NCBI GenBank assembly: GCA_001874305.1
Contig: MPCU01000005.1
Coordinates: 124,001 to 188,000, forward strand
Direction: 5' to 3'
Origin: Bacteriovorax sp. MedPE-SWde
Lineage (GTDB): Bacteria; Bdellovibrionota; Bacteriovoracia; Bacteriovoracales; Bacteriovoracaceae
Length of the DNA: 64,000 bases
Below the pieces are notes generated by a model that saw nothing but the letters and a program-made list of their open reading frames with translations, had not been told where the DNA came from and did no database searches. The translations under genes were made by a program, and so were the position numbers. This document shows positions 9,558 through 40,084 of this stretch, in pieces; position 1 is the stretch's first letter, and each line of letters starts with the position of its first letter.

Positions 9558-9944
9558 ATGAAGAAAGTAATTACTTATGGAACCTTTGATTTGTTGCACT
9601 GGGGGCATGTTAATCTACTTAAAAGAGCCAGAGAACTTGGAGATTATCTTATCGTAGGATTATCTAGTGATGAGTTCAATAAAATAAAGCATAAACAATC
9701 TTTTCATAAATATGAGGAGAGAAGACTAATTCTAGAAGCGATTAGATATGTAGATGAAGTAATTCCTGAGGATAACTGGACTCAAAAAGAAGAAGATATT
9801 AAAAAGTATAGTATAGATACTTTTGTTATGGGCTCTGACTGGGAGAACGAATTTGATGAGCTATCTGAGCTATGTGAAGTAAAATATCTTAAAAGAACTG
9901 ATGGCATTTCTACTTCTCAAATTAAAGAAGACCTATCAAATTAG
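9558..9944 (+). CDS. tagD: glycerol-3-phosphate cytidylyltransferase
   Basis: Makes CDP-glycerol from CTP and glycerol-3-phosphate. 128 residues, near the family's usual length. It has YGTFDLLHWGH with the HxGH nucleotide motif at residues 14-17 and the C-terminal RTDGISTS signature. CDP-glycerol would supply the LicD-like protein next door or the TagF-like protein at 37924. The last codons overlap the end of the convergent flippase gene by nine bases. Confidence 0.9.
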   Translation: MKKVITYGTFDLLHWGHVNLLKRARELGDYLIVGLSSDEFNKIKHKQSFHKYEERRLILEAIRYVDEVIPEDNWTQKEEDIKKYSIDTFVMGSDWENEFDELSELCEVKYLKRTDGISTSQIKEDLSN

Positions 9945-28662: not shown

Positions 28663-29268
28663 ATGCTTAAAAGAGCTATAGATATTGTCTTTAGTTTTCT
28701 TATTTTGATTATTGTGAGTCCAATTATCTTGATAAGTGCTATTGTTGTTTTAATTACAATGGGCTCCCCTATTTTCTTTACTCAAGCACGTGCTGGTAAA
28801 GACGGTAAACTATTTCATATTAAAAAGTTTCGAAGCATGTTCTCATTAAAGCCCGACAATAAACATCTAACAGACGAACAAAGAATTACAAAGTTTGGAC
28901 GTTTTCTTAGAAGCTCTAGCATCGATGAACTTCCTGGCCTTTTTAATGTTTTAAAGGGAGAGATGAGTCTTGTTGGTCCTCGACCACTTTTAATGGATTA
29001 TTTACCTCTGTACTCAAAAGAGCAAGCACGTAGACACAAAGTTTTACCAGGGATAACAGGTTGGGCACAGATAAATGGACGAAATGCAATTAGCTGGGAA
29101 GAGAAATTTAGACTAGATGTATGGTATGTCGACAATAGATCTATACTCCTTGATATCAAGATACTCTTTTTAACAGTAAAAAAAGTTCTTATAAAAGAAG
29201 GAATTACAGCAGTTGAAGAAGTGATAATGCCTCGATTTAAAGGGTCAAAAAGTGATCAAGATGAATAA
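28663..29268 (+). CDS. small phosphoglycosyl transferase (PglC-like)
   Basis: 201 residues: one N-terminal re-entrant hydrophobic segment, then the monotopic catalytic domain with KKFRSM, SSIDELPGL, SLVGPRPLLMDY and GITGWAQINGRN. It loads a sugar-1-phosphate, often a diNAcBac or FucNAc4N-like unit, on undecaprenyl phosphate. AGGAG precedes the ATG. It opens a nine-gene forward operon to 37935 that holds the predicted phosphoramidate genes, so it may start the glycan that gets that decoration. Confidence 0.92.
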   Translation: MLKRAIDIVFSFLILIIVSPIILISAIVVLITMGSPIFFTQARAGKDGKLFHIKKFRSMFSLKPDNKHLTDEQRITKFGRFLRSSSIDELPGLFNVLKGEMSLVGPRPLLMDYLPLYSKEQARRHKVLPGITGWAQINGRNAISWEEKFRLDVWYVDNRSILLDIKILFLTVKKVLIKEGITAVEEVIMPRFKGSKSDQDE

Positions 29269-30052
29269 ATCAATCGTACTAATTTCTGATATTCACGGTA
29301 ATGCAAACGCTTTAGAAGTGGTATTGAAAGAGATTAGTACGATTGAAAAAGTCGATCAAATTATAATCCTTGGAGATCTTCTAACTTATGGCTGTAGACC
29401 AAATAAAGTCGTAGAGCTACTTGAAGAGCTTAATAATGAGTATGAGTGTATTTTTATAAAAGGTAATCACGAAGAATTTTATTTCAATATTCAATCTAGT
29501 AAAGAGCCTTTTACATATGAACCACCGGCCTTTGTAAAAGAAGCAATTCTTTGGACTGGTAATAATCTGAAGAAAGATCTTAACTGCTCGTTTAAATGGG
29601 TCGAGAGTCTAACTGTTGATGAGTGCTATTTTGCACACGCAAACCCATTTGGTTATGGAGATTGGACCTATTTAAATGATAAGGACAGTCATACTAGAGC
29701 GGCTCTTAAGTTAGAAGAGTTGAATTGTAAGTATTCTTTTTTTGGGCATACCCATCGTAATAAAGCTGGAATATATACTGATAAGAAGTTTACTTTTTTT
29801 GAAAATACTGAAAAGGTTTTTAGTCTTGATAAGAGTGATGAAGAATCTAGATATATATTCAATACAGGGTCGATTGGTCAAGCGAGAGGAACTAAACCTT
29901 CCTATATCAAACTATTAATAAACGAAAAAAATATTCAGGTAATAATTAGAGAACTTGACTTAGATCATACGAATACAATTTCTGAAATAGAAGAAAGTTC
30001 ATTATCTGATGAAACTAAGAAACGTCTAATTTCTTACTTAAGGAGTAGCTAA
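29252..30052 (+). CDS. calcineurin-like metallophosphoesterase
   Basis: 266 residues with the full metal set: ISDIHGNANA, ILGDLLTYG, IKGNHEEF and FGHTHRN, then NTGSIGQARG. This matches the YfcE/MJ0936-like phosphodiesterase/phosphatase group. It is cytoplasmic, with no signal peptide. It overlaps the phosphoglycosyl transferase by 17 bases from a GTG with AAAGGG upstream; an ATG at 29261 is the alternative. In this operon it may hydrolyse a phosphate or nucleotide intermediate, but the substrate is unknown. Confidence 0.85.
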   Translation: MIKMNKSIVLISDIHGNANALEVVLKEISTIEKVDQIIILGDLLTYGCRPNKVVELLEELNNEYECIFIKGNHEEFYFNIQSSKEPFTYEPPAFVKEAILWTGNNLKKDLNCSFKWVESLTVDECYFAHANPFGYGDWTYLNDKDSHTRAALKLEELNCKYSFFGHTHRNKAGIYTDKKFTFFENTEKVFSLDKSDEESRYIFNTGSIGQARGTKPSYIKLLINEKNIQVIIRELDLDHTNTISEIEESSLSDETKKRLISYLRSS

Positions 30053-31062
30053 TGATAACTGTATTTGTAACAGGTGCTGGGGGAGGAGTAGGCCAAGGTA
30101 TAATAAAATCTTTAAAACTTGTTGAAGATTTAGATATTAGGATTATATCTGCTGATATGAGTCCACTAGCTACGGCCTTATATAAAACAGATTGTTCTTA
30201 CCTTATACCAAAGGCTTCTGACGATGGTTATACGGATTTTTTAGTCAATATTTTTAAAAAAGAAAAAGTAGACTTTTATTTTCCGGGCACTGATGTAGAG
30301 CTATTAATATCTTCAGAGCAAAGTGATTTTTTTAGAAAAGAATCAAATACTACTGTAGTTGTTTCTCCATATAATTCCATTGAGATTGCAGACGATAAAT
30401 ATCTAACTTATAAGTTTATATCTGAAAATAATTTACCAGCACCAGAAAGTTATTTACCAGATGAGCTTCCTGCAGACTTAAAATATCCAATTATTGTTAA
30501 ACCAAGAGTTGGCTGTCGATCAATTGGTGTATCGATTGCAAATAATGAGAAAGAGCTTCAGGCAAGATTGTCTACAGAAAGCGGACTCATGGTTCAAGAA
30601 CTAGTAGGAAGAGATGATGAAGAGTACACATGTACTGTAGCATCTTATGATGGACAAATTTCTGAAGCATTAATCTTAAGACGAACACTTAGGTCTGGAG
30701 ACACTTACCGTGCTACTCCAGTAAAATCAGAAGCAATATCTAATTATGTTCGGAAGTTAACTAAGCTTCTTAATATCAATGGTTCATGTAACTTTCAGCT
30801 TAGACTTACCAATGATGTGCCAAAAGTATTTGAAATTAACTGCCGCTTTTCAGGGACAACGCCATTTTGCTCACAGTTAGGATTTAACCCTGTCGAGTTC
30901 TACTTAAAAAGTGCGCTAGGTAAAACATACGAAAGCTCAGTTGATTATAATAAGATTGTTCTTCGGCATTGGACAGAGTCAGTAATTGATAATACTGAGA
31001 TTGAAAAGTTATCTGCTGAAGGAAAGCTTTACCCTTCTGATCATAAAATATCAACACTTTAG
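30052..31062 (+). CDS. ATP-grasp ligase (CarB/PylC-like)
   Basis: 336 residues: an N-terminal Rossmann-like part (VTGAGGGVGQGI), then an ATP-grasp domain with IIVKPRVGCRSIGV for the nucleotide and FEINCRFSGTT for metal. Such enzymes activate a carboxylate with ATP and join it to an amine or thiol. The ATG overlaps the previous stop by one base. It lies two genes before the predicted glutamine kinase. It may make an amide-linked substituent or process a glutamyl intermediate; both ideas are inference. Confidence 0.82.
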   Translation: MITVFVTGAGGGVGQGIIKSLKLVEDLDIRIISADMSPLATALYKTDCSYLIPKASDDGYTDFLVNIFKKEKVDFYFPGTDVELLISSEQSDFFRKESNTTVVVSPYNSIEIADDKYLTYKFISENNLPAPESYLPDELPADLKYPIIVKPRVGCRSIGVSIANNEKELQARLSTESGLMVQELVGRDDEEYTCTVASYDGQISEALILRRTLRSGDTYRATPVKSEAISNYVRKLTKLLNINGSCNFQLRLTNDVPKVFEINCRFSGTTPFCSQLGFNPVEFYLKSALGKTYESSVDYNKIVLRHWTESVIDNTEIEKLSAEGKLYPSDHKISTL

Positions 31063-31072
31063 GAATTAGGCT

Positions 31073-31969
31073 TTGAAACTAACAAAAGTTGCAATTACAG
31101 GTGCTAGAGGAATGTTGGGGTCACACATGAAGGTGGTTCTTAGTGAAAATGACATTGATTGCAAGGTTATTGATCGGAACTCATGGGACTTATGTGACTG
31201 GAAAACAGGTGAAGAGCTGGATGAAATATTTAATGGAATAGATGCTTTTATACATATTGGAGCAGCAGTTCCTTCCGTGACGAATCCAAAAAATATTCAA
31301 ACACTATTTGACTCAAACATAAGAAGTGTTACTAATTTATGTGAGCATGCACTCGAAAAGGATATTCCTATTGTTTATATTTCAGGTGCAACTGTATATA
31401 AAGGTGTTCATTCAGTGGACATAAAGGAAGACGCTTTAAAAACCACAAATAATTTTGGAGGTTTTTATGGTTTCACAAAATACCTTGCTGAGCAGGTTGT
31501 TTCGCATTTTGCGCATAATGGTTTACGACAAGTTTCCTTACGTCCTTCGTCGATATATGGATATGGAATGGGCGACGATGTACTTGTCGCAAACTTCTTG
31601 GCTAGAGCAAAAAAGAACTCAGAGATAACAATTAAAGCTCCTAGTAGTAATAGTGTTAATTTAATACATGCATATGATGTTGCTAACGCAGTCATCTTGG
31701 CACTAAGAAATGAAGCTTGGGGAGTATATAATATAGCCGCTAAGTCAAATACATCTATATATGACTTAGCAAAATACTGTACTGAAATATATGACGCAGG
31801 AAAGATCATTATTGATGTTGAAGATGAAAAGCTTAAAGATCAAGCTTTCCTTAGGTTTGACTTAAATTATGAAAAAGCTCAAAAGTTTTTTGACTATAAG
31901 CCACTAGTTAGCATTAAAAAAGGTCTAGAGATTATGGCCAAAAAAAAGTTCTCGCCAGAAGAAATTTAA
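31073..31969 (+). CDS. NAD-dependent epimerase/dehydratase (SDR)
   Basis: 298 residues, extended SDR type: ITGARGMLGSHM nucleotide motif, HIGAAVPSVT, SGATVYKG and FYGFTKYLAEQ with the YxxxK pair. The general look is that of sugar-nucleotide 4-keto reductases or epimerases (RmlD/WcaG-like). It could reduce a 4-keto sugar made by Gmd or another dehydratase in this locus. It follows the ATP-grasp gene by ten bases. The exact sugar is not known. Confidence 0.8.
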   Translation: MKLTKVAITGARGMLGSHMKVVLSENDIDCKVIDRNSWDLCDWKTGEELDEIFNGIDAFIHIGAAVPSVTNPKNIQTLFDSNIRSVTNLCEHALEKDIPIVYISGATVYKGVHSVDIKEDALKTTNNFGGFYGFTKYLAEQVVSHFAHNGLRQVSLRPSSIYGYGMGDDVLVANFLARAKKNSEITIKAPSSNSVNLIHAYDVANAVILALRNEAWGVYNIAAKSNTSIYDLAKYCTEIYDAGKIIIDVEDEKLKDQAFLRFDLNYEKAQKFFDYKPLVSIKKGLEIMAKKKFSPEEI

Positions 31970-32048: not shown

Positions 32049-34388
32049 ATGATTACGCTCATGTCATTAGTATTTAAAACGAAAGCCCAGAACCTTGATG
32101 ATCTATCAACAAACCTTAAAAGTGCATCTATTCTGCCTTTAGAATATTTCTCATTTTCTGAATGGCAAAGCTCTAAAGAAAAAATTCTAGAAAGATTAGA
32201 AAAATTTAAGAACAAGAATTTAGTTGTTAGAAGTTCTTCTCAAAATGAAGACAGTGAAAAAGAAAGTTTAGCTGGCCATTTTACTTCAATATTAAATGTA
32301 AAATATGAAAATATTATAAGTGCAGTGGAAGAAGTATTAGCTTCTTATAAAGAATCTCTATCAGGTGAAGACCAAGTATTAGTTCAACCCATGCTTGAAA
32401 ATGTAGAAAATTCTGGGGTTGTATTTTCTAGAGATATTTCAAATGCGTCACATTATTACGTAATTAATTACGATGAGGTTTCTGGGTCAACTGACTCGGT
32501 AACTTCTGGTGAAAAGTCAGATAACTTATCTACACTGTATATTGCAAAATCAACTTTAATTGAGAAGATAACAGGTTGGCAGCAACAACTTGTTGTGACT
32601 ATAAGAGAGCTTGAAGAATTATATGATTCAAGTGCTCTAGATGTTGAGTTTGGATTCAGTGAGGGAAATCTGTATGTTTTTCAAGTTAGACCATTAATTC
32701 TAGCTAATAAAGAATCTCTTGTTGATTCAGAAAGTCATCGTTTGTACATTAGACAAATTAAAAATAAAGTTACATCTTTAAGTAAGAAGTTTCCTTACTT
32801 GGCTGGGGATAAGTCAATTTTTGGTGTTATGCCAGACTGGAACCCTGCTGAAATTATTGGTATTCGTCCAAGGCCATTCGCATTGTCTTTGTACAAGGAG
32901 CTAATAACAGATGGGATTTGGGCAGAGTCAAGACATAGGTGTGGATATCGCAACCTTCACTCTTTCCCGCTAATTGTTTCCCTTGGGGGTATTCCTTATG
33001 TGGATGTTAGAGTTAGTTTTAATTCTTTTATACCAAAGGACATTAATGATGAGTTAGCAAATAAGCTTGTAAATCATTATTTAGACGCATTGAGAGAAAA
33101 TCCTAGCAATCACGATAAAGTAGAGTTTGAAATTATATATTCGTGTTTTACTTTTGACCTGGAGAAAAGAGCACTGAGGTTATTGGATCATGGCTTTAAT
33201 AAGACGGAAGTAAGCCAACTAACAAGCTCTCTTACAAAGTTAACTAATAATATTATTGATAACCACGAAGGTCTTTGGAAGCAAGACTTTGAAAGTTTGA
33301 AAGTTCTTCAGGAAAGACAAAAAACGATTTTAAATAGCGACTTAAATGAAATTGAAAAAAATTATTGGCTAATAGAAGATTGTAAAAAGTATGGAACATT
33401 ACCATTTGCTGGTCTTGCTAGAGCGGGCTTCATCGCTGTCCAGCTTCTTAACTCTATGGTGTCAGAGGGTATTTTATCTCAAGAAGACTACGATAGTTTT
33501 ATGAATTCTCTTAGAACAATTAGTTCAGATATGAATCATGATTTTGAAGAATTAGATAAAGAGAACTTCATTGAGAAGTATGGTCATTTAAGACCAGGTA
33601 CATATGATATATTAACACCTAGTTATAAAGAGGATCCTGATAGATATTTTCAGTGGGGAGAGAAAAGTCATCACCGAAAAGAGGAAGAGCCGTTTGTTCT
33701 TTCAGATGAAAAGAATAAAAAACTAGAAAAAGCTTTAAAATCTCATGGACTAAATACGAATATAGAATACTTTTTTGACTTCTTAAAGGGAGCTATTGAG
33801 GGAAGAGAATATTCAAAGTTCTTATTTACAAAAAGTTTATCGGCCTCAATGGATTCACTTATCCTTATGGGAGAAAAATTCGGATTTACAAGAGATGAAC
33901 TTTCATATGCCGATATAAAAGCTATTCATAATCTCTACTCAAGTACTAATAAGCTTAGTTCTACTTTGAATTGGTCAATAGGTATGGGTAAAAAGGTATA
34001 TAATAAAGTTACTAGTAATATAACTCTACCTCCATTAATTATTGATGAAAGCTTTGTTGAAAACTTTGAACTTCCTAAAAACCAGCCTAACTTTATAACT
34101 TTAAAGCAAGTAACAGCTCGAATTACAAATCTAGATAACCTTGAAAACCTGAATGATAGTATTGTAATGATACCTAGCGCAGACCCAGGTTTTGATTGGA
34201 TTTTTACATATAAAATTAAAGGCTTTGTTACAATGTATGGCGGAGCTAACTCACATATGGCCATTAGAGCTGGGGAACTAAGTATTCCAGCAATAATAGG
34301 TGCAGGTGAATTAATGTATAAGAAATGGTCAAAAGCAAAAGTTTTAACTATAGATTGCTCGAATAAGAAAGTTGAGATAATTCAATGA
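32049..34388 (+). CDS. predicted L-glutamine kinase (PEP synthase-like, Cj1418 type)
   Basis: 779 residues. An N-terminal ATP-binding domain of the PEP synthase/PPDK kind has VVRSSSQNED at 59-68, AGHFTS and FQVRPLI at 211-217. A C-terminal phosphohistidine domain has GGANSHMAIRAGELSIPAIIG with the histidine at residue 736. The C-terminal PEP/pyruvate barrel of true PEP synthase is missing. In Campylobacter jejuni, Cj1418 has this build and phosphorylates the amide nitrogen of L-glutamine. The next two genes match Cj1417 and Cj1416 in order, which is the main support. An ATG at 32061 is an alternative start. Function is inferred from family and context. Confidence 0.75.
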   Translation: MITLMSLVFKTKAQNLDDLSTNLKSASILPLEYFSFSEWQSSKEKILERLEKFKNKNLVVRSSSQNEDSEKESLAGHFTSILNVKYENIISAVEEVLASYKESLSGEDQVLVQPMLENVENSGVVFSRDISNASHYYVINYDEVSGSTDSVTSGEKSDNLSTLYIAKSTLIEKITGWQQQLVVTIRELEELYDSSALDVEFGFSEGNLYVFQVRPLILANKESLVDSESHRLYIRQIKNKVTSLSKKFPYLAGDKSIFGVMPDWNPAEIIGIRPRPFALSLYKELITDGIWAESRHRCGYRNLHSFPLIVSLGGIPYVDVRVSFNSFIPKDINDELANKLVNHYLDALRENPSNHDKVEFEIIYSCFTFDLEKRALRLLDHGFNKTEVSQLTSSLTKLTNNIIDNHEGLWKQDFESLKVLQERQKTILNSDLNEIEKNYWLIEDCKKYGTLPFAGLARAGFIAVQLLNSMVSEGILSQEDYDSFMNSLRTISSDMNHDFEELDKENFIEKYGHLRPGTYDILTPSYKEDPDRYFQWGEKSHHRKEEEPFVLSDEKNKKLEKALKSHGLNTNIEYFFDFLKGAIEGREYSKFLFTKSLSASMDSLILMGEKFGFTRDELSYADIKAIHNLYSSTNKLSSTLNWSIGMGKKVYNKVTSNITLPPLIIDESFVENFELPKNQPNFITLKQVTARITNLDNLENLNDSIVMIPSADPGFDWIFTYKIKGFVTMYGGANSHMAIRAGELSIPAIIGAGELMYKKWSKAKVLTIDCSNKKVEIIQ

Positions 34389-35008
34389 AAAAAATTCTAG
34401 TTTCACAGCGTGTTTCAATAGAGAAAAGCTATAACGAGAGAAGAGATTGTCTCGATCAATCTTGGATGGCCTTATTAGAAAAATCTGAACTTTTGCCTGT
34501 TTTAGTACCTAATAATATTTCAATAGTAAGAAGCTTAATTAGTGAAATTCAGATAGATGGGGTTTTACTAACAGGTGGTAATAGTCTTATTGAAAATGGA
34601 GGTGATGCTCCAGAAAGAGATGATGTAGAGCTTTTTATTATTAAATATGCAATAGATAATAAGCTTCCAATATATGGAGTTTGTCGAGGAATGCAGATAA
34701 TTCAAAGGTATTTTGGAATCGACCTCTTTAGTGTTGATGGGCATGTGGCAACAAGGCATAAGTTAAAAGATGTAAAAGGAAACCATATTTCATATTTAAA
34801 GTCTCTTGAAACGGTTAATGCATTTCACGACTTTGGAACTACAGAGACGTTAGGTGATTTAAAAGTGTCTGCGAGATCAGAAAATAATATCGTTATGGCA
34901 ATTGAGAATACTGAAAAAAAAATATTCGGACAGATGTGGCATCCTGAAAGGGAGTCGCCATATATAGAGGCGGATATTAATCAAATAAAATTATTTTTTG
35001 GAGTTTAA
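34385..35008 (+). CDS. predicted gamma-glutamyl-CDP-amidate hydrolase (Cj1417 type)
   Basis: 207 residues of the class I glutamine amidotransferase/peptidase C26 fold: LLTGGNSL, the nucleophile elbow GVCRGMQII with Cys100, and MWHPERESP with His186 and Glu188. Cj1417 has this fold and splits CDP-L-glutamine into CDP-amidate and glutamate. A general gamma-glutamyl-GABA hydrolase would look alike, so the call rests on its place. It overlaps the kinase gene by four bases and touches the cytidylyltransferase gene with no gap. Confidence 0.72.
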   Translation: MKKILVSQRVSIEKSYNERRDCLDQSWMALLEKSELLPVLVPNNISIVRSLISEIQIDGVLLTGGNSLIENGGDAPERDDVELFIIKYAIDNKLPIYGVCRGMQIIQRYFGIDLFSVDGHVATRHKLKDVKGNHISYLKSLETVNAFHDFGTTETLGDLKVSARSENNIVMAIENTEKKIFGQMWHPERESPYIEADINQIKLFFGV

Positions 35009-35752
35009 ATGAAGGGAATTATATTAGCTGCAGGACGAGGTTCAAGAATGGGGAGCCTTACTGATAATCTTCCAAAGTGCAGAACTGAGTTTCTTGGAAA
35101 GGAGCTAATTGATTGGCAATTGTTAGCCCTTAAAGAAGCGGGTATTAATGAGATAGCAATAATCACAGGCTATCTAAAAGAAACGTTTGAGTACCAAGTT
35201 ACATACTTTAATAATAACCGTTGGTCAGAAACAAATATGGTTATGACTCTTATGGAAGCAGAAGAATGGCTAAGCAAAGATGAGTGTATCGTCAGTTATT
35301 CTGATATATGCTTCTCTTCAAGACCAATAAGAAAACTTATGAAAGATAAGTCAGATTTTGCAATATCATATGATCCTGATTGGTATAATTTATGGAAAGT
35401 TCGTATGGACGATCCACTTTCTGATGCAGAAACATTTAAGCTAGATACAGATAGTAATATTATAGAAATTGGACAAAAAACAGATGACTTGAATGATATT
35501 CGTGGTCAGTTTATGGGTCTTATAAAGGTTACCCCAACTTCATTTAAAGACATTACAAAGCTCTTAGAGGAGAGAACTCAACAAGAGCGTGATAAGTTTG
35601 ATTTTACAAGCTTACTTAACGAAATGATTAAAAATAACTGTAAGGTAAGAGCTGTTGAGATTGATGACCAGTGGTATGAAGTTGATACTGAAGATGATCT
35701 AAATGCATATCTGAAGTGGAGAACTCCAGGTAATATCTTTGAGAAGATTTAG
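35009..35752 (+). CDS. predicted CTP:phosphoglutamine cytidylyltransferase (Cj1416 type)
   Basis: 247 residues of the sugar nucleotidyltransferase fold: ILAAGRGSRMGSLTDNLPKC near the start, YSDICFSSRP for the metal site and DQWYEVDTEDDL at the end. The same fold serves LicC (phosphocholine cytidylyltransferase), but no licA or licB gene is present. Instead the two preceding genes look like Cj1418 and Cj1417. In that pathway this enzyme joins CMP to phosphoglutamine to give CDP-L-glutamine. Its start directly follows the stop of the hydrolase gene. Confidence 0.72.
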   Translation: MKGIILAAGRGSRMGSLTDNLPKCRTEFLGKELIDWQLLALKEAGINEIAIITGYLKETFEYQVTYFNNNRWSETNMVMTLMEAEEWLSKDECIVSYSDICFSSRPIRKLMKDKSDFAISYDPDWYNLWKVRMDDPLSDAETFKLDTDSNIIEIGQKTDDLNDIRGQFMGLIKVTPTSFKDITKLLEERTQQERDKFDFTSLLNEMIKNNCKVRAVEIDDQWYEVDTEDDLNAYLKWRTPGNIFEKI

Positions 35753-35764
35753 AGGAAAACTAGT

Positions 35765-36901
35765 ATGAAAGTTTTAATATCAGTAGTTGGGCGCTTTCAT
35801 GCTTTTGATTTAGCACGCTCACTTTATAAACATAATATTTTACACAAGTTAGTGACAACATATCCAAAGTTCGTTGCCAAAAAGTTTGGGATTCCTAGAT
35901 CGCATGTAATTTCTGAAGCGATTTTAGAAGTTCTTGCAAGGTTATCTAGAAAGTTTTCTTTTCTCAATTATGAAAAAATTAATAATCTAGTAAAGTTACT
36001 CCACGATAAAAACTGTTCTAGATATGTCTCTAAAAGTGATGTCTTTATAGGTTGGAGTGGAATTTCATTCAATTCAATGATTAGAGCAAAAAAGCTTGGT
36101 ATACCAACAATTCTTGAAAGAGGCTCAAGCCATGTTAGATTCCAAAATCTTCTTTTAAAAGAGGAATTCGAAAGTCTAGGATTAACTCAAGAGTTAGATT
36201 TTGAGAAAATTAAATTTGACGAAAAAGAATACGAGATAACGGATTATGTTTCTATACCATCAACTTTTGTATTAGAGAGCTTCCTTTCGCAGGGATTTCC
36301 TAAGGAGAAATTGATTGTTAATCCTTACGGGGTTGATGTGGATCAGTTCCCGGTAGAAAACAATAGAACAGAACATTTTAAGATTATCTTTGTAGGAGGT
36401 GGGAAAATAGCTAAAGGATTTCATTATCTTTTACAGGCCCTACATGAACTAAATGATCCAGAAATTGAGCTTATACATGTAGGTCACTTTGCAGAAGAAA
36501 TGAATCATTTTAGAGAAAAGTACTACAATGCAAAAGTTAGTTATAGAGGAATTAAGCCTCAGGCCGAGTTATATAAATACTACGGGGAAGCACACGCATT
36601 CGTTCTTCCATCTTTAACAGAAGGTATGGCAATGGTTCAATTACAGGCCATGTGCTGTGCACTTCCTATTCTTTCTACAACCAATACCGGCGGTTCTGAC
36701 TTAATTACTGAAGGGAAAGAAGGTTTTATAGTTCCTATTCGAGATGTCGGAGCTTTGTCTGAGAAGATTTTATTCTTTAAGAACAACAGAGAACTCACTG
36801 AAGAAATGGGTAGAAAAGGCAGAGAGAAAGTACTGAATAATTTTACGTGGGAACACTACGGAGATAGATACGTACAAAATATAAAAGAAAGACTAAGCTA
36901 G
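35765..36901 (+). CDS. GT4-like glycosyltransferase with altered EX7E motif
   Basis: 378 residues: LERGSSHVRFQN in the first domain, NPYGVDVDQF, IIFVGGGKIAKGF and LPSLTEGMAMVQLQAM in the second. The first glutamate of EX7E is kept but the second is glutamine (E-GMAMVQL-Q). This is uncommon, and the enzyme may still be active because the residue mainly contacts the donor sugar. It lies 12 bases after the cytidylyltransferase, so it probably serves the glycan that receives the decoration. Confidence 0.8.
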   Translation: MKVLISVVGRFHAFDLARSLYKHNILHKLVTTYPKFVAKKFGIPRSHVISEAILEVLARLSRKFSFLNYEKINNLVKLLHDKNCSRYVSKSDVFIGWSGISFNSMIRAKKLGIPTILERGSSHVRFQNLLLKEEFESLGLTQELDFEKIKFDEKEYEITDYVSIPSTFVLESFLSQGFPKEKLIVNPYGVDVDQFPVENNRTEHFKIIFVGGGKIAKGFHYLLQALHELNDPEIELIHVGHFAEEMNHFREKYYNAKVSYRGIKPQAELYKYYGEAHAFVLPSLTEGMAMVQLQAMCCALPILSTTNTGGSDLITEGKEGFIVPIRDVGALSEKILFFKNNRELTEEMGRKGREKVLNNFTWEHYGDRYVQNIKERLS

Positions 36902-36909
36902 GAATTTTT

Positions 36910-37935
36910 TTGAATATATTATTTATAGGTGAAATAAATTCAGGATCAAGAGGACTTCAAAGGCTGAACTCCCTTCTCGAATTAGGACATAAGGTAACTA
37001 CGGTGAACCTTGGCCCTATTGCACTTCCATATTTGAAACTAAAATTATTAAATCTTACGTATAAACTTGGCTACCCTTATGATGTACTCAAGGTAAACCA
37101 ACAGGTTATAGATTTTGCTTCGAACAATAAATATGATTATGTTTGGGTAGACAAAGCACTGGTATTGAAGCCTTCAACTCTTAAGAAGGTAATGAGACTT
37201 CAGCCTGAAGTAAAAATTTTAATGTACACAGAAGATAATTTATTTTTAAAGCACAATCAAAGTAAATATTTTTTATCATGTGTTAAATATTTTGATTTGT
37301 TCGTAACAACGAAGTCGGAAAACCTCGAATCCACAGAGCCTATTCGGAAAGATATAAGGAAAATATTCTTTGTTAATAATTCATATGATGAAAATATCCA
37401 TAAACCATCTTTAAAAGAATGGCCTAAGAGATTTCGAAACGAAGTTCTATTTATCGGTTCTTATGAGCCAATAAGAGCTGCAAGTATTGCTCATATTGCA
37501 GAAGGTGGAGTTCCTGTGACTATTTGGGGTGATGGTTGGAAGTCGTTTAGTCATGCCTCACATAAGAACATAAAGTTACATGGAAAAGGTCTGAGAGGGG
37601 AAGATTATGCTGATGAAGTCTTTAATTCACGTATCTCTCTATGCTTTTTACGAAAGGCAAATCACGATCTACAAACTGCACGTTCTGTTGAAATTCCGGC
37701 ATGTGGTGGATTTATGCTTGCAGAAGACACTGACGAGCATAGAGCACTTTTCGAAAACGATAAAGAAGCCGTATATTTTACATCTAACGAAGATCTTCTA
37801 GGTAAAGTTATAAAGTACTTAAACAATGAAGAAAAAAGATTAGATATATCGAAAAGAGCCAGAGAGCGCTGTCTTGATTCCGAATATTCTCACAAAGATA
37901 TGATTAACTTGATTATTAACGAGTTAGAGCAGTAG
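36910..37935 (+). CDS. CgeB/DUF3880-like glycosyltransferase
   Basis: 341 residues. It begins NILFIGEINSGSRGLQR, with WVDKALVLKP, MYTEDNLFL, VLFIGSYEPIRA, and near the end SRISLCFLRKANHD with TARSVEIPACGGFMLAED, the last being typical of CgeB-like GT-B proteins. The start is a TTG preceded by GGAA. Last gene of the forward operon. It overlaps the convergent TagF-like gene by 12 bases. Confidence 0.75.
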   Translation: MNILFIGEINSGSRGLQRLNSLLELGHKVTTVNLGPIALPYLKLKLLNLTYKLGYPYDVLKVNQQVIDFASNNKYDYVWVDKALVLKPSTLKKVMRLQPEVKILMYTEDNLFLKHNQSKYFLSCVKYFDLFVTTKSENLESTEPIRKDIRKIFFVNNSYDENIHKPSLKEWPKRFRNEVLFIGSYEPIRAASIAHIAEGGVPVTIWGDGWKSFSHASHKNIKLHGKGLRGEDYADEVFNSRISLCFLRKANHDLQTARSVEIPACGGFMLAEDTDEHRALFENDKEAVYFTSNEDLLGKVIKYLNNEEKRLDISKRARERCLDSEYSHKDMINLIINELEQ

Positions 37936-39078
37936 TTTTTCAAGCTCTGACTGTATTCTAGAACGAGACCTACCATCATGAAAGTGGTTAATGATACGAT
38001 TGAGTCTTAAGCGGTCTTCTTCAAAATAACGCTTGTCACTTATACTCTTATCAATCTCTTCTTGTAGATCTGATTGGCCATAGACTTTGGGCCCTGGAGT
38101 CCAGTCATCATAAGGGTCCATCAAGAACCCTCTGTTTTTCGTATAGGCTTCTAAATCTATTGGGCAGAAAACACATGGACGATTTAATAGTAGAAAATCG
38201 AAATAGATACCAGAGTAATCAGTAATTAATAAATCTACACCACCAAGAACTTCATAAAGATCAAGGTTCTCTTTTTCCAAAACAGTATTTGATAAGTTAA
38301 AGCTAAACTCTGGATCTATGTTATTTATATACTGACCTAGAAATGGTTCTTCATTTGGGTGAAGTTTATATACAAAAATGTGGTTATTTTCTTTTAAAAA
38401 CTTATTAAATAGACTTGAATCAAATTTTTCCAAACCAAAAATATTAGAAAAGTCTTTGTTACCTTGATCTTCTCCGTATCCAAGTCTAAATGTTGGTGCA
38501 AAGAAAAGAACTTTTGCATCCGTCCTTTTTGATTTAAGAACCTTTAATAGTTTTTCTCTTGAATCAGTATTGTAGAGTAGGTCATTTCTAGGAACACCGG
38601 TGATCTTAAATTTATGTGGATCAGATAAGAAGCATGCACTCATAGAAGTAGTATAAAATGACGAATAAGAAGCTAAGCCATCAACATAATCCCAATCGGT
38701 CTTAATCCTACCCCTGTTTTTTTTGATTTCCATTGCGCCTGTAGCTTTAAGATGAACAGAATGCCAAAAATCAAATGTTTTACGCCCTTTAAGGATAATC
38801 GGACCATGAGTTGAAGCAAGAACTTTAGCTTCACATAGCTTTTTTATGAAAGAACAAAAACCTGTAAAACTACTTTTGTCATACTTTTTACTATCAATCA
38901 GTTCAATTTCATATGAGATTTCTTTTGTTTTTGTATACGTGAATTGTGCTCTTGAGTTACAGCCTGAGTGACCTTCACTTATAAAAACTATTTTATTCTT
39001 AGGAGATATAACTCTTGAATAAAAGTGTTTCAAAATAAAAAAGGAGATCTTTTTAATCATAGAGTTAATCCACGTCAT
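37924..39078 (-). CDS. TagF-like CDP-glycerol glycerophosphotransferase family protein
   Basis: About 384 residues: WHSVHLKATG (family pattern WHGTxxK), VPRNDLLY, FFAPTFR, YKLHPNEEP, LLITDYSGIYFDFLL and NRPCVF, then a C-terminal HDGRSRSRI. These fit the TagF/TarF family, which move glycerol phosphate from CDP-glycerol to a glycan. TagD at 9558 would provide CDP-glycerol. Starts at TTG 39087 or ATG 39060 are also possible. The donor could also be another CDP compound made in this locus, such as CDP-amidate; that is speculation. Confidence 0.82.
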   Translation of the reverse strand: MTWINSMIKKISFFILKHFYSRVISPKNKIVFISEGHSGCNSRAQFTYTKTKEISYEIELIDSKKYDKSSFTGFCSFIKKLCEAKVLASTHGPIILKGRKTFDFWHSVHLKATGAMEIKKNRGRIKTDWDYVDGLASYSSFYTTSMSACFLSDPHKFKITGVPRNDLLYNTDSREKLLKVLKSKRTDAKVLFFAPTFRLGYGEDQGNKDFSNIFGLEKFDSSLFNKFLKENNHIFVYKLHPNEEPFLGQYINNIDPEFSFNLSNTVLEKENLDLYEVLGGVDLLITDYSGIYFDFLLLNRPCVFCPIDLEAYTKNRGFLMDPYDDWTPGPKVYGQSDLQEEIDKSISDKRYFEEDRLRLNRIINHFHDGRSRSRIQSELEKLLL

Positions 39079-40084
39079 GCTTTTCAAGCATTTCTTTAAT
39101 CAGTTCAGCTACACTAATTTGTGCTCTCCATTTAAGCTTTTCAAGTGCTCGAGTAGAATCACCTACTTGAGCTTTATAGTCATTTTTCCTGAAAAATCTT
39201 GGATCAATTACAACGACTATATTTCCTGAAGACTTATCTATGCCCACCTCATCGATTTCTCCACGGTTACCTTTCCATTCTATTTCGATACCTACACTTA
39301 AAAAAGAACTTTCAATAAAGCTTCTTACAGTAGTAGAAACACCTGTAGCGATGACATAGTCATCCGATATTTCCTGCTGGAGAGATAGCCACATGGCCTC
39401 AACATACTCTTTAGCGTGACCCCAATCTCTTGAGACATCGATACTACCAATCTTTAGTGGAGATGAACTTCCCTTGTGGATACTGGCAACAGCTTTTATG
39501 ATCTTACTGGTAACGAAACTTTCACCTCTACGTGGAGATTCATGATTAAAAAGAATTCCATTTACAAAAAACTGGCTTAAACTATCTCTATAATATTTCG
39601 ATAAGAAATATGAGTAGGCTTTCGAAATACCATAGGGTGAAATTGGATTAATCGAGTCGTCTTCAGCTATGTACTCAGCATCAATCTTTCCAAAAATATG
39701 TGAAGAAGATGCGTTAAAAAACTTAAAGCTTTTTCCTGAGTTAATTGCAGCTGTTGATAAATTAAAAAAAGATTCTTGATTGGTAACAAGTGTCTTTTCA
39801 AGGTTATCAAAAGACATGCCAGCTTCTGAAAATCCAGTAAGGTGATATATTTCATCAAAATTGTATTTCGAAAATAAATCTACAAAGTCTAATTTATTAG
39901 CATAATCAACTTTTATAATATTTATTCTATCAAGCAGGTGTGAAATTTTTGAGAAAGAACTAGGGCTTTCATTGTGACTATAGCGAGATAGACCTATAAC
40001 AGTATATTCTTTATTTAATAATAACTCTGCTAGGTATGAACCATCTTGACCAGTGATACCAGTAATTAAAGCAAACTTAGCCAT
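39065..40084 (-). CDS. Gmd-like SDR paralogue with changed catalytic residues
   Basis: 339 residues, clearly related end to end to the gmd gene next door: GITGQDGSYLAELLL, INHESPRRG-like FNHESPRRG, WGHAKEYVEAMW and TTVRSFIESSF. PYGISKAYSYF keeps YxxxK. The dehydratase triad segment STSELYG of Gmd reads SSSHIFG here, so the catalytic glutamate is histidine and the threonine is serine. It may therefore reduce or epimerise rather than dehydrate, or act on another sugar such as a heptose. It lies three bases after gmd and probably arose by tandem duplication. Confidence 0.8.
   Translation of the reverse strand: MAKFALITGITGQDGSYLAELLLNKEYTVIGLSRYSHNESPSSFSKISHLLDRINIIKVDYANKLDFVDLFSKYNFDEIYHLTGFSEAGMSFDNLEKTLVTNQESFFNLSTAAINSGKSFKFFNASSSHIFGKIDAEYIAEDDSINPISPYGISKAYSYFLSKYYRDSLSQFFVNGILFNHESPRRGESFVTSKIIKAVASIHKGSSSPLKIGSIDVSRDWGHAKEYVEAMWLSLQQEISDDYVIATGVSTTVRSFIESSFLSVGIEIEWKGNRGEIDEVGIDKSSGNIVVVIDPRFFRKNDYKAQVGDSTRALEKLKWRAQISVAELIKEMLEKHDVD

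Follow-up and report, generated by a model that had tools for sequence, protein, structure and literature searches.

In Campylobacter jejuni, the pathway of cytidine diphosphate (CDP)-amidate (PMC6429109) supplies the O-methyl phosphoramidate (MeOPN) tag of the capsule, which is a phage receptor (PMC9561416), and knock-outs of Cj1416, Cj1417 or Cj1418 each abolish MeOPN in this species (PMC3546167). A fourth enzyme, the CDP-amidate kinase Cj1415, is also needed and works ahead of the transfer (PMC3546167; title cited in PMC12409886). C. jejuni itself has also been observed to carry the unmethylated phosphoramidate (PMC9561416). In the literature, both the glutamine kinase and the capsule tag are regarded as peculiar to Campylobacter (PMC9561416, PMC6429109): a 2022 review speaks of “a C. 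jejuni-specific glutamine kinase” (PMC9561416), and according to a 2019 review, Campylobacter is so far the only place where the modification is known (PMC6429109). The present analysis concerns a stretch of 64,000 nucleotides from Bacteriovorax sp. MedPE-SWde (contig MPCU01000005.1, positions 124,001 to 188,000), here called the window, in which a trio of touching genes at 32049-35752 very probably, to judge from the families of the three proteins, makes CDP-amidate.

The trio consists of three intact open reading frames (ORFs) on the forward strand (Table 1), the first two of which overlap by 4 bases, with the third beginning directly after the end of the second; they lie at the positions given in the original prediction. 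Scans for promoters and terminators gave no more signals than shuffled sequence. By analogy with the C. jejuni enzymes, the first protein would perform the glutamine kinase step, the cytidylyltransferase would join the phosphoglutamine to cytidine monophosphate (CMP) from cytidine triphosphate (CTP) to yield CDP-L-glutamine, and the hydrolase would remove the glutamate from the latter, leaving CDP-amidate (H2N-P-O-P-cytidine).

The kinase reaches 979 bits with the NCBIfam model NF004508 (the PRK05849 family; cut-off 501), and its Pfam domains, i.e., a PPDK_N ATP-binding domain at residues 45-140 and a PEP-utilizer mobile domain at 703-772, agree with the domain content that had been proposed for it. 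Its plan is that of an ATP-grasp N-domain, a central substrate domain and a C-terminal swivel domain with the phosphohistidine His736, and has no pyruvate barrel. This histidine is invariant in 22 aligned kinase relatives, the most divergent one included. The models of phosphoenolpyruvate (PEP) synthase give about 55 bits, and the match to TIGR01418 (PpsA) is partial, at 52.9 bits against a cut-off of 739.75, with no pyruvate-binding barrel found. The AlphaFold2 model of the kinase (pLDDT 89) has the rifampin phosphotransferases (RPH) as its top Foldseek matches, with TM-scores of 0.30-0.37, low values which probably result from a different placement of the domains. The paralogues of the window genome score at most 127 bits on the trio kinase profile, against 1150 for the trio kinase.

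The hydrolase, in turn, matches Peptidase_C26/GATase in Pfam, in keeping with the class I amidotransferase fold foreseen for it, and its top NCBIfam family is NF045546 (gamma-glutamyl-CDP-amidate hydrolase), at 109.4 bits, the next family reaching 49.5. The proposed triad of Cys100, His186 and Glu188 is invariant in 27 aligned homologues from trio operons, and the paralogues of the window genome reach at most 55 bits on the trio hydrolase profile, against 267 for the trio hydrolase. On this protein, the PuuD model NF008471 gives 40.3 bits against a cut-off of 266, so that the grouping with PpsA or PuuD, which the original prediction had named as counter-evidence, is not what was found, both models lying far below their cut-offs. 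The third protein has the nucleotidyltransferase fold, and by sequence it comes closest, within the PDB, to LicC (1jyk), as had been anticipated, with an E-value of 2e-14 in a single-sequence search and of 2.8e-26 by profile, while the closest folds to its structural model (pLDDT 94.9) are those of PntC (6pd2) and the inositol-1-phosphate CTP transferase of T. maritima (4jd0). The trio cytidylyltransferases have conserved residues of their own, which are common to the 24 that were aligned. At the level of sequence, the predicted set of glutamine kinase, phosphoglutamine cytidylyltransferase and gamma-glutamyl-CDP-amidate hydrolase is thus well supported.

The rarity of the trio that the original prediction implied was not borne out, given that it is widespread across the bacterial phyla, though rare in its own phylum, where the kinase family was found in six of 369 genomes. 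A scan of GTDB species returned at least 526 kinase relatives, from the Pseudomonadota, Acidobacteriota, Bacillota, Planctomycetota, Spirochaetota, Nitrospinota, Verrucomicrobiota and others, and the same trio is present in plasmid records of Azospirillum, Vibrio and Agrobacterium. The order kinase-hydrolase-cytidylyltransferase is kept in most of the 80 loci inspected, from many phyla, which argues that the arrangement is not due to chance. In the kinase tree, the phyla are intermixed, as would be expected of an operon that moves horizontally, and the window kinase is the sister (support 98) of that of genome G034, which belongs to the same family; the trio is absent from all five genomes sampled from the same genus. 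No paper on this wider distribution was found in a literature search that left most subscription papers outside its reach.

At most loci, the trio is accompanied by further genes. Clustering of the neighbouring ORFs revealed that most loci add a protein similar to adenylylsulfate (APS) kinase (approximately 190 aa) and a methyltransferase (approximately 250 aa), often together with a sulfotransferase-like or CysQ-like gene, and the APS-kinase-like protein was recorded in 74 trio loci. The APS-kinase-like gene agrees with the requirement for Cj1415 in C. jejuni. The known route adds a 3'-phosphate, similar to that of 3'-phosphoadenylyl sulfate (PAPS), and this gene content suggests that it involves sulfotransferase-like enzymes and the methyltransferase. 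About ten loci (L031, L032, L036, L037, L038, L041, L046, L050, L061 and L077) combine the glutamine kinase and the APS-kinase-like part in a fusion protein of approximately 960-1060 aa, which links the two steps. A CysQ-like 3'-nucleotidase lies inside the operons of L017, L044, L058, L065, L066, L073, L078 and L107, as expected if the transfer releases a 3'-phosphorylated nucleotide. A reading of the loci L019, L034, L040, L048, L065 and L098, where the methyltransferase is missing, also showed a formyltransferase-like protein near the trio; one of these proteins, when tested, matched nothing in Pfam or NCBIfam, and the phosphoramidate may receive some other final modification at these loci.

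None of these genes (APS kinase, methyltransferase, sulfotransferase-like or CysQ-like) was found beside the window trio. Nor did the window genome (3.76 Mb, 99.7% complete) yield any PF01583 APS kinase, any PF13469 (Sulfotransfer_3) protein, the family consulted with regard to a phosphoramidate transferase of the Cj1421/Cj1422 type, PF00685 not having been searched genome-wide, or any match to the trio-associated methyltransferases in an alignment-based search (E ≤ 1e-8); the PF01583 and PF13469 searches were shown to work by control genomes. As the genome has neither an APS-kinase-family protein nor the trio-associated methyltransferases, 3'-phosphorylation and trio-type methylation are unlikely in this organism, and the equation of the trio with the O-methyl phosphoramidate route, made in the original prediction, is not sustained. 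Given the absence of the enzymes of the searched families for these two steps, the chances are about evenly balanced that CDP-amidate is itself the donor and that the unmethylated phosphoramidate is added directly, in which case a CDP-using transferase would attach it to the O-antigen or capsule whose genes surround the trio.

The window is not alone in this minimal architecture, i.e., a trio without the APS kinase, which is also found in Vibrio, Treponema, Agrobacterium and two other lineages of the phylum of the window. In G034, a PF04464-like (TagF-type) gene overlaps the start of the kinase, the trio lies outside any glycan locus, and no counterparts of the PF01583 APS kinase, PF13469 or the trio-associated methyltransferase were found in a genome that is 67% complete. 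Homologues of this TagF-type gene, the first of which came from a single-sequence search, lie beside the kinase in a very divergent lineage of the phylum (G240/G241, whose genomes hold one APS-kinase-like protein of unclear type), and occur in Treponema (L049 and L086) and at the locus L085. A PF04464 gene directly follows the trio on a plasmid of Vibrio alfacsensis (L130), a weak PF04464 match just precedes it in the near-identical plasmid loci of Pseudohalocynthiibacter and Roseovarius, and a CDP-alcohol phosphotransferase is present at the trio of an Agrobacterium vitis plasmid (L136). At a Bacillus locus with a kinase gene divided over two reading frames, a gene of the LicD type lies upstream. 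For the plasmids, the lack of an APS kinase refers to the locus alone, whereas for L049, L085, L086 and L074 a genome-wide search, in genomes of unknown completeness, found no trio-type APS kinase. Three other candidates were set aside: L054 and L081, where the contigs are cut short and the genomes hold a trio-type APS kinase elsewhere, and L010 (G083), which, read over a longer distance, proved to have an APS kinase as well as formyltransferase-like and sulfotransferase genes.

The TagF-, LicD- and CDP-alcohol-type families are known for using CDP-activated donors. Counted in small numbers of partly related loci, and with a homologue profile trained in part on the members themselves, the methyltransferase is found in none of the seven loci without the APS kinase versus 60 of the 74 with it (p = 3e-5), and the G034-type gene in five of these seven versus six of the 74 (p = 3e-4), while PF04464 lies within 4 kb in 7/10 loci without the APS kinase versus at most 3/25 randomly drawn loci that have it (p = 0.002). 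On the kinase tree, the minimal architecture requires approximately five changes, at least three of which are forced by well-supported branches. Since minimal trios usually adjoin a transferase of one of these three types, their gene content suggests that they use CDP-amidate directly.

In the window, the candidate of this type is the TagF-like protein of 37924-39087, which, if the direct use of CDP-amidate is given a definite enzyme, would transfer the phosphoramidate to a glycan and release CMP. The neighbours of the other minimal trios (PF04464 in G034, G240/G241, Treponema, Vibrio and the Rhodobacterales, LicD in Bacillus, and the CDP-alcohol type in Agrobacterium) and the frequency of PF04464 within 4 kb of them favour this assignment, as does the fact that this is the sole PF04464 protein of the window genome, with the five sampled species of the genus lacking both such a protein and the trio. 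It is nevertheless doubtful, and the case for a clear phosphoramidate transferase was weakened by the glycerol-3-phosphate cytidylyltransferase of TagD type encoded at 9558-9944, which scores above its cut-off and would provide CDP-glycerol as a ready donor. Moreover, the TagF-like protein scores best with TarF, its gene lies on the strand opposite to the trio, its relatives in Rheinheimera adjoin a CDP-glycerol synthase, and its similarity to the trio neighbour of G034 is distant (27% over 84 residues). Given the TagD-type gene, the resemblance to TarF and the Rheinheimera neighbourhood, CDP-glycerol is a simpler donor for this protein than CDP-amidate. The two groups can coexist, as the HS:1 capsule of C. 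jejuni bears the phosphoramidate tag on top of a backbone with glycerol phosphate (PMC11924219).

On the other hand, the window trio might be the first part of the complete route known from Campylobacter, with 3'-phosphorylation, O-methylation and a dedicated transferase, whose missing enzymes would be encoded elsewhere or belong to unrelated families. The 74 loci with the APS-kinase-like protein, 60 of them with the methyltransferase, and the requirement for Cj1415 in C. jejuni (PMC3546167) are in line with this explanation, which is made very unlikely by the three negative searches of a nearly complete genome and by the lack of the same enzymes at the sister trio of G034, with the lower completeness of that genome. 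It is most improbable that the hydrolase or the cytidylyltransferase has some other specificity (e.g., that of a LicC-like phosphocholine enzyme or a PuuD-like hydrolase) and lies beside the kinase by coincidence, as might be supposed from the size and multifunctionality of both folds and from the neighbour names given by NCBI (‘phosphocholine cytidylyltransferase family’ and ‘gamma-glutamyl-gamma-aminobutyrate hydrolase family’), given that the order and adjacency of all three genes are kept at loci from distant phyla, intermixed in the kinase tree, and that PuuD-type and other amidotransferase models fall far below NF045546 on the window hydrolase.

Some points nevertheless weigh against the synthesis of CDP-amidate by the trio. 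The hydrolase, at 109 bits, does not reach the NF045546 cut-off of 250 bits, which seems to have been set for close relatives of Campylobacter, as all 27 hydrolases from trio operons match the model, the best with an E-value of 6e-40. The kinase model NF004508 is named only ‘hypothetical protein’ by NCBI, and the literature search found no biochemistry for members outside Campylobacter. The likeness to Cj1418-Cj1417-Cj1416 was established through family models rather than direct alignment; it stands for the families and their order, and the standard for the lengths was that of the NCBI models (789 and 198 positions) rather than the Cj proteins. Finally, kinases without a hydrolase or cytidylyltransferase nearby in Cupriavidus and Microvirga indicate that specificity can drift inside these folds.

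The lone kinases in question are found on plasmids of Cupriavidus taiwanensis and Microvirga lotononidis (L137/L138), the former near a thiamine-diphosphate enzyme and a transaminase, and possibly put N-phosphoglutamine to a different use. A very divergent kinase relative, with an N-terminus that appears to span the membrane, belongs to a compact set of four genes outside glycan loci (L108 8511-10838 and L109 6584-8944), and other kinases carry an extra N-terminal domain resembling a cytidylyltransferase (L098 4911-7856, L107 9365-12415, L130 7347-10355 and L133 5164-8373). The phage-labelled record MT837632.1 (L129 652-3687) encodes a kinase-hydrolase fusion of 1011 aa beside a thioredoxin-reductase-like gene and is probably of bacterial origin. 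A phage origin of the kinase, suggested by one IMG/VR record and one ‘Bacteriophage sp.’ record, was not upheld, as the latter is unverified and unannotated and, with its thioredoxin-reductase-like neighbour, looks bacterial.

The genes around the trio (Table 1) confirm the surface-glycan locus that had been predicted, with Wzy-like and MatE-like membrane proteins, a sugar transferase, nucleotide-sugar enzymes and many glycosyltransferases, and in this context the product of the trio is likely to decorate the surface. The metallophosphoesterase and the ATP-grasp protein (29252-31062), upstream on the same strand, are without homologues near other trios.

Table 1. Coordinates of the trio and other genes of the window, with the matches on which their names are based.
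Feature	Position	Strand	Basis
Glycerol-3-phosphate cytidylyltransferase (TagD type), makes CDP-glycerol	9558..9944	+	TIGR01518 183 bits (cut-off 165)
Bacterial sugar transferase (initiating glycosyl-1-phosphate transferase)	28663..29268	+	PF02397 E 8e-65
Metallophosphoesterase	29252..30052	+	PF00149 E 3e-18
ATP-grasp protein, PRK12767 ‘carbamoyl phosphate synthase-like’ family	30052..31062	+	NF009402 302 bits (cut-off 218)
NAD-dependent epimerase/dehydratase, probable glycan gene	31073..31969	+	PF01370 E 5e-30
Predicted L-glutamine kinase (Cj1418-like)	32049..34388	+	779 aa; NF004508, PPDK_N + PEP-utilizers
Predicted gamma-glutamyl-CDP-amidate hydrolase (Cj1417-like)	34385..35008	+	207 aa; class I amidotransferase fold; NF045546
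Predicted phosphoglutamine cytidylyltransferase (Cj1416-like), LicC/PntC-type	35009..35752	+	247 aa; 1jyk, 6pd2
GT4 glycosyltransferase, 12 bases downstream of the trio	35765..36901	+	PF00534 E 2e-27
Glycosyltransferase-like protein, one possible candidate for phosphoramidate transfer	36910..37935	+	PF13524 E 9e-25
TagF/TarF-like CDP-glycerol glycerophosphotransferase family protein	37924..39087	-	PF04464 160 bits

Other trios differ in their surroundings. A reading of the sequences of Pseudomonas and a related metagenome-assembled genome (L019, L020, L022, L024, L026 and L030) places the trio just downstream of a FlgK-like gene, which suggests a phosphoramidate-type group on flagellar glycans. 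In Treponema (L049 4529-8770 and L086 8016-9842), genes similar to those of 2-aminoethylphosphonate synthesis adjoin the trio, again by reading, and phosphonate and phosphoramidate decoration may be combined there.

Taken together, it is quite conceivable, with a chance just short of even, that two routes lead from CDP-amidate to the surface, and that the second, which would be that of the window, skips the 3'-phosphate and the methylation and relies on CDP-dependent phosphotransferases of the TagF-like, LicD-like or CDP-alcohol type. If this second route is real, several phyla would have unmethylated phosphoramidate on their glycans and, perhaps, also on lipids or small molecules. The minimal architecture predicts the attachment of phosphoramidate without the CDP-amidate kinase step, and the best candidate transferases are those of G034, G241 and Vibrio alfacsensis, which are in contact with the trio or next to it. 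Bonds between phosphorus and nitrogen are seldom met in known biology; should the trio function as predicted, this chemistry would be spread over many phyla, masked by annotations like ‘PEP-utilizing enzyme’ and ‘gamma-glutamyl-gamma-aminobutyrate hydrolase’. Given the role of the Campylobacter tag as a phage receptor, this may also matter for the sensitivity to phages of bacteria far outside Campylobacter.

Compared with known systems, the window kinase has in common with the rifampin phosphotransferases (5hv1/5fbs) the ATP-grasp, substrate and phosphohistidine domains and the His-relay plan, but is only 14-16% identical to them and gives 23.5 bits with their model NF041857, against a cut-off of 999. 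The cytidylyltransferase similarly has the fold and the nucleotide-binding start of LicC and PntC, its top matches in the PDB by sequence and structure, but differs from these CTP cytidylyltransferases in its low identity (20-24%) and in being embedded in a trio. With Cj1418-Cj1417-Cj1416 of C. jejuni, the window shares the three enzyme families and their order, a His-relay kinase without the pyruvate barrel and a surface-glycan locus, whereas its hydrolase lies well below the NCBI cut-off and its genome is without a Cj1415-type kinase and the trio-associated methyltransferase. The full MeOPN-type operons of Azospirillum, Pseudomonas, the Planctomycetes, the Lachnospiraceae and G304, of the same phylum as the window, have the same trio, with a kinase approximately 38-53% identical, but add the APS-kinase-like protein (sometimes fused), the methyltransferase or formyltransferase-like protein, often a sulfotransferase-like and sometimes a CysQ-like protein, none of which the window has beside its trio. 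In the minimal trios with a CDP-using transferase (G034, G240/G241, L049/L086, L130 and L136), that transferase is mostly immediately adjacent, whereas the nearest in the window lies 2.2 kb away on the other strand; what the window has in common with this group is the trio itself, standing without the APS kinase and the methyltransferase.

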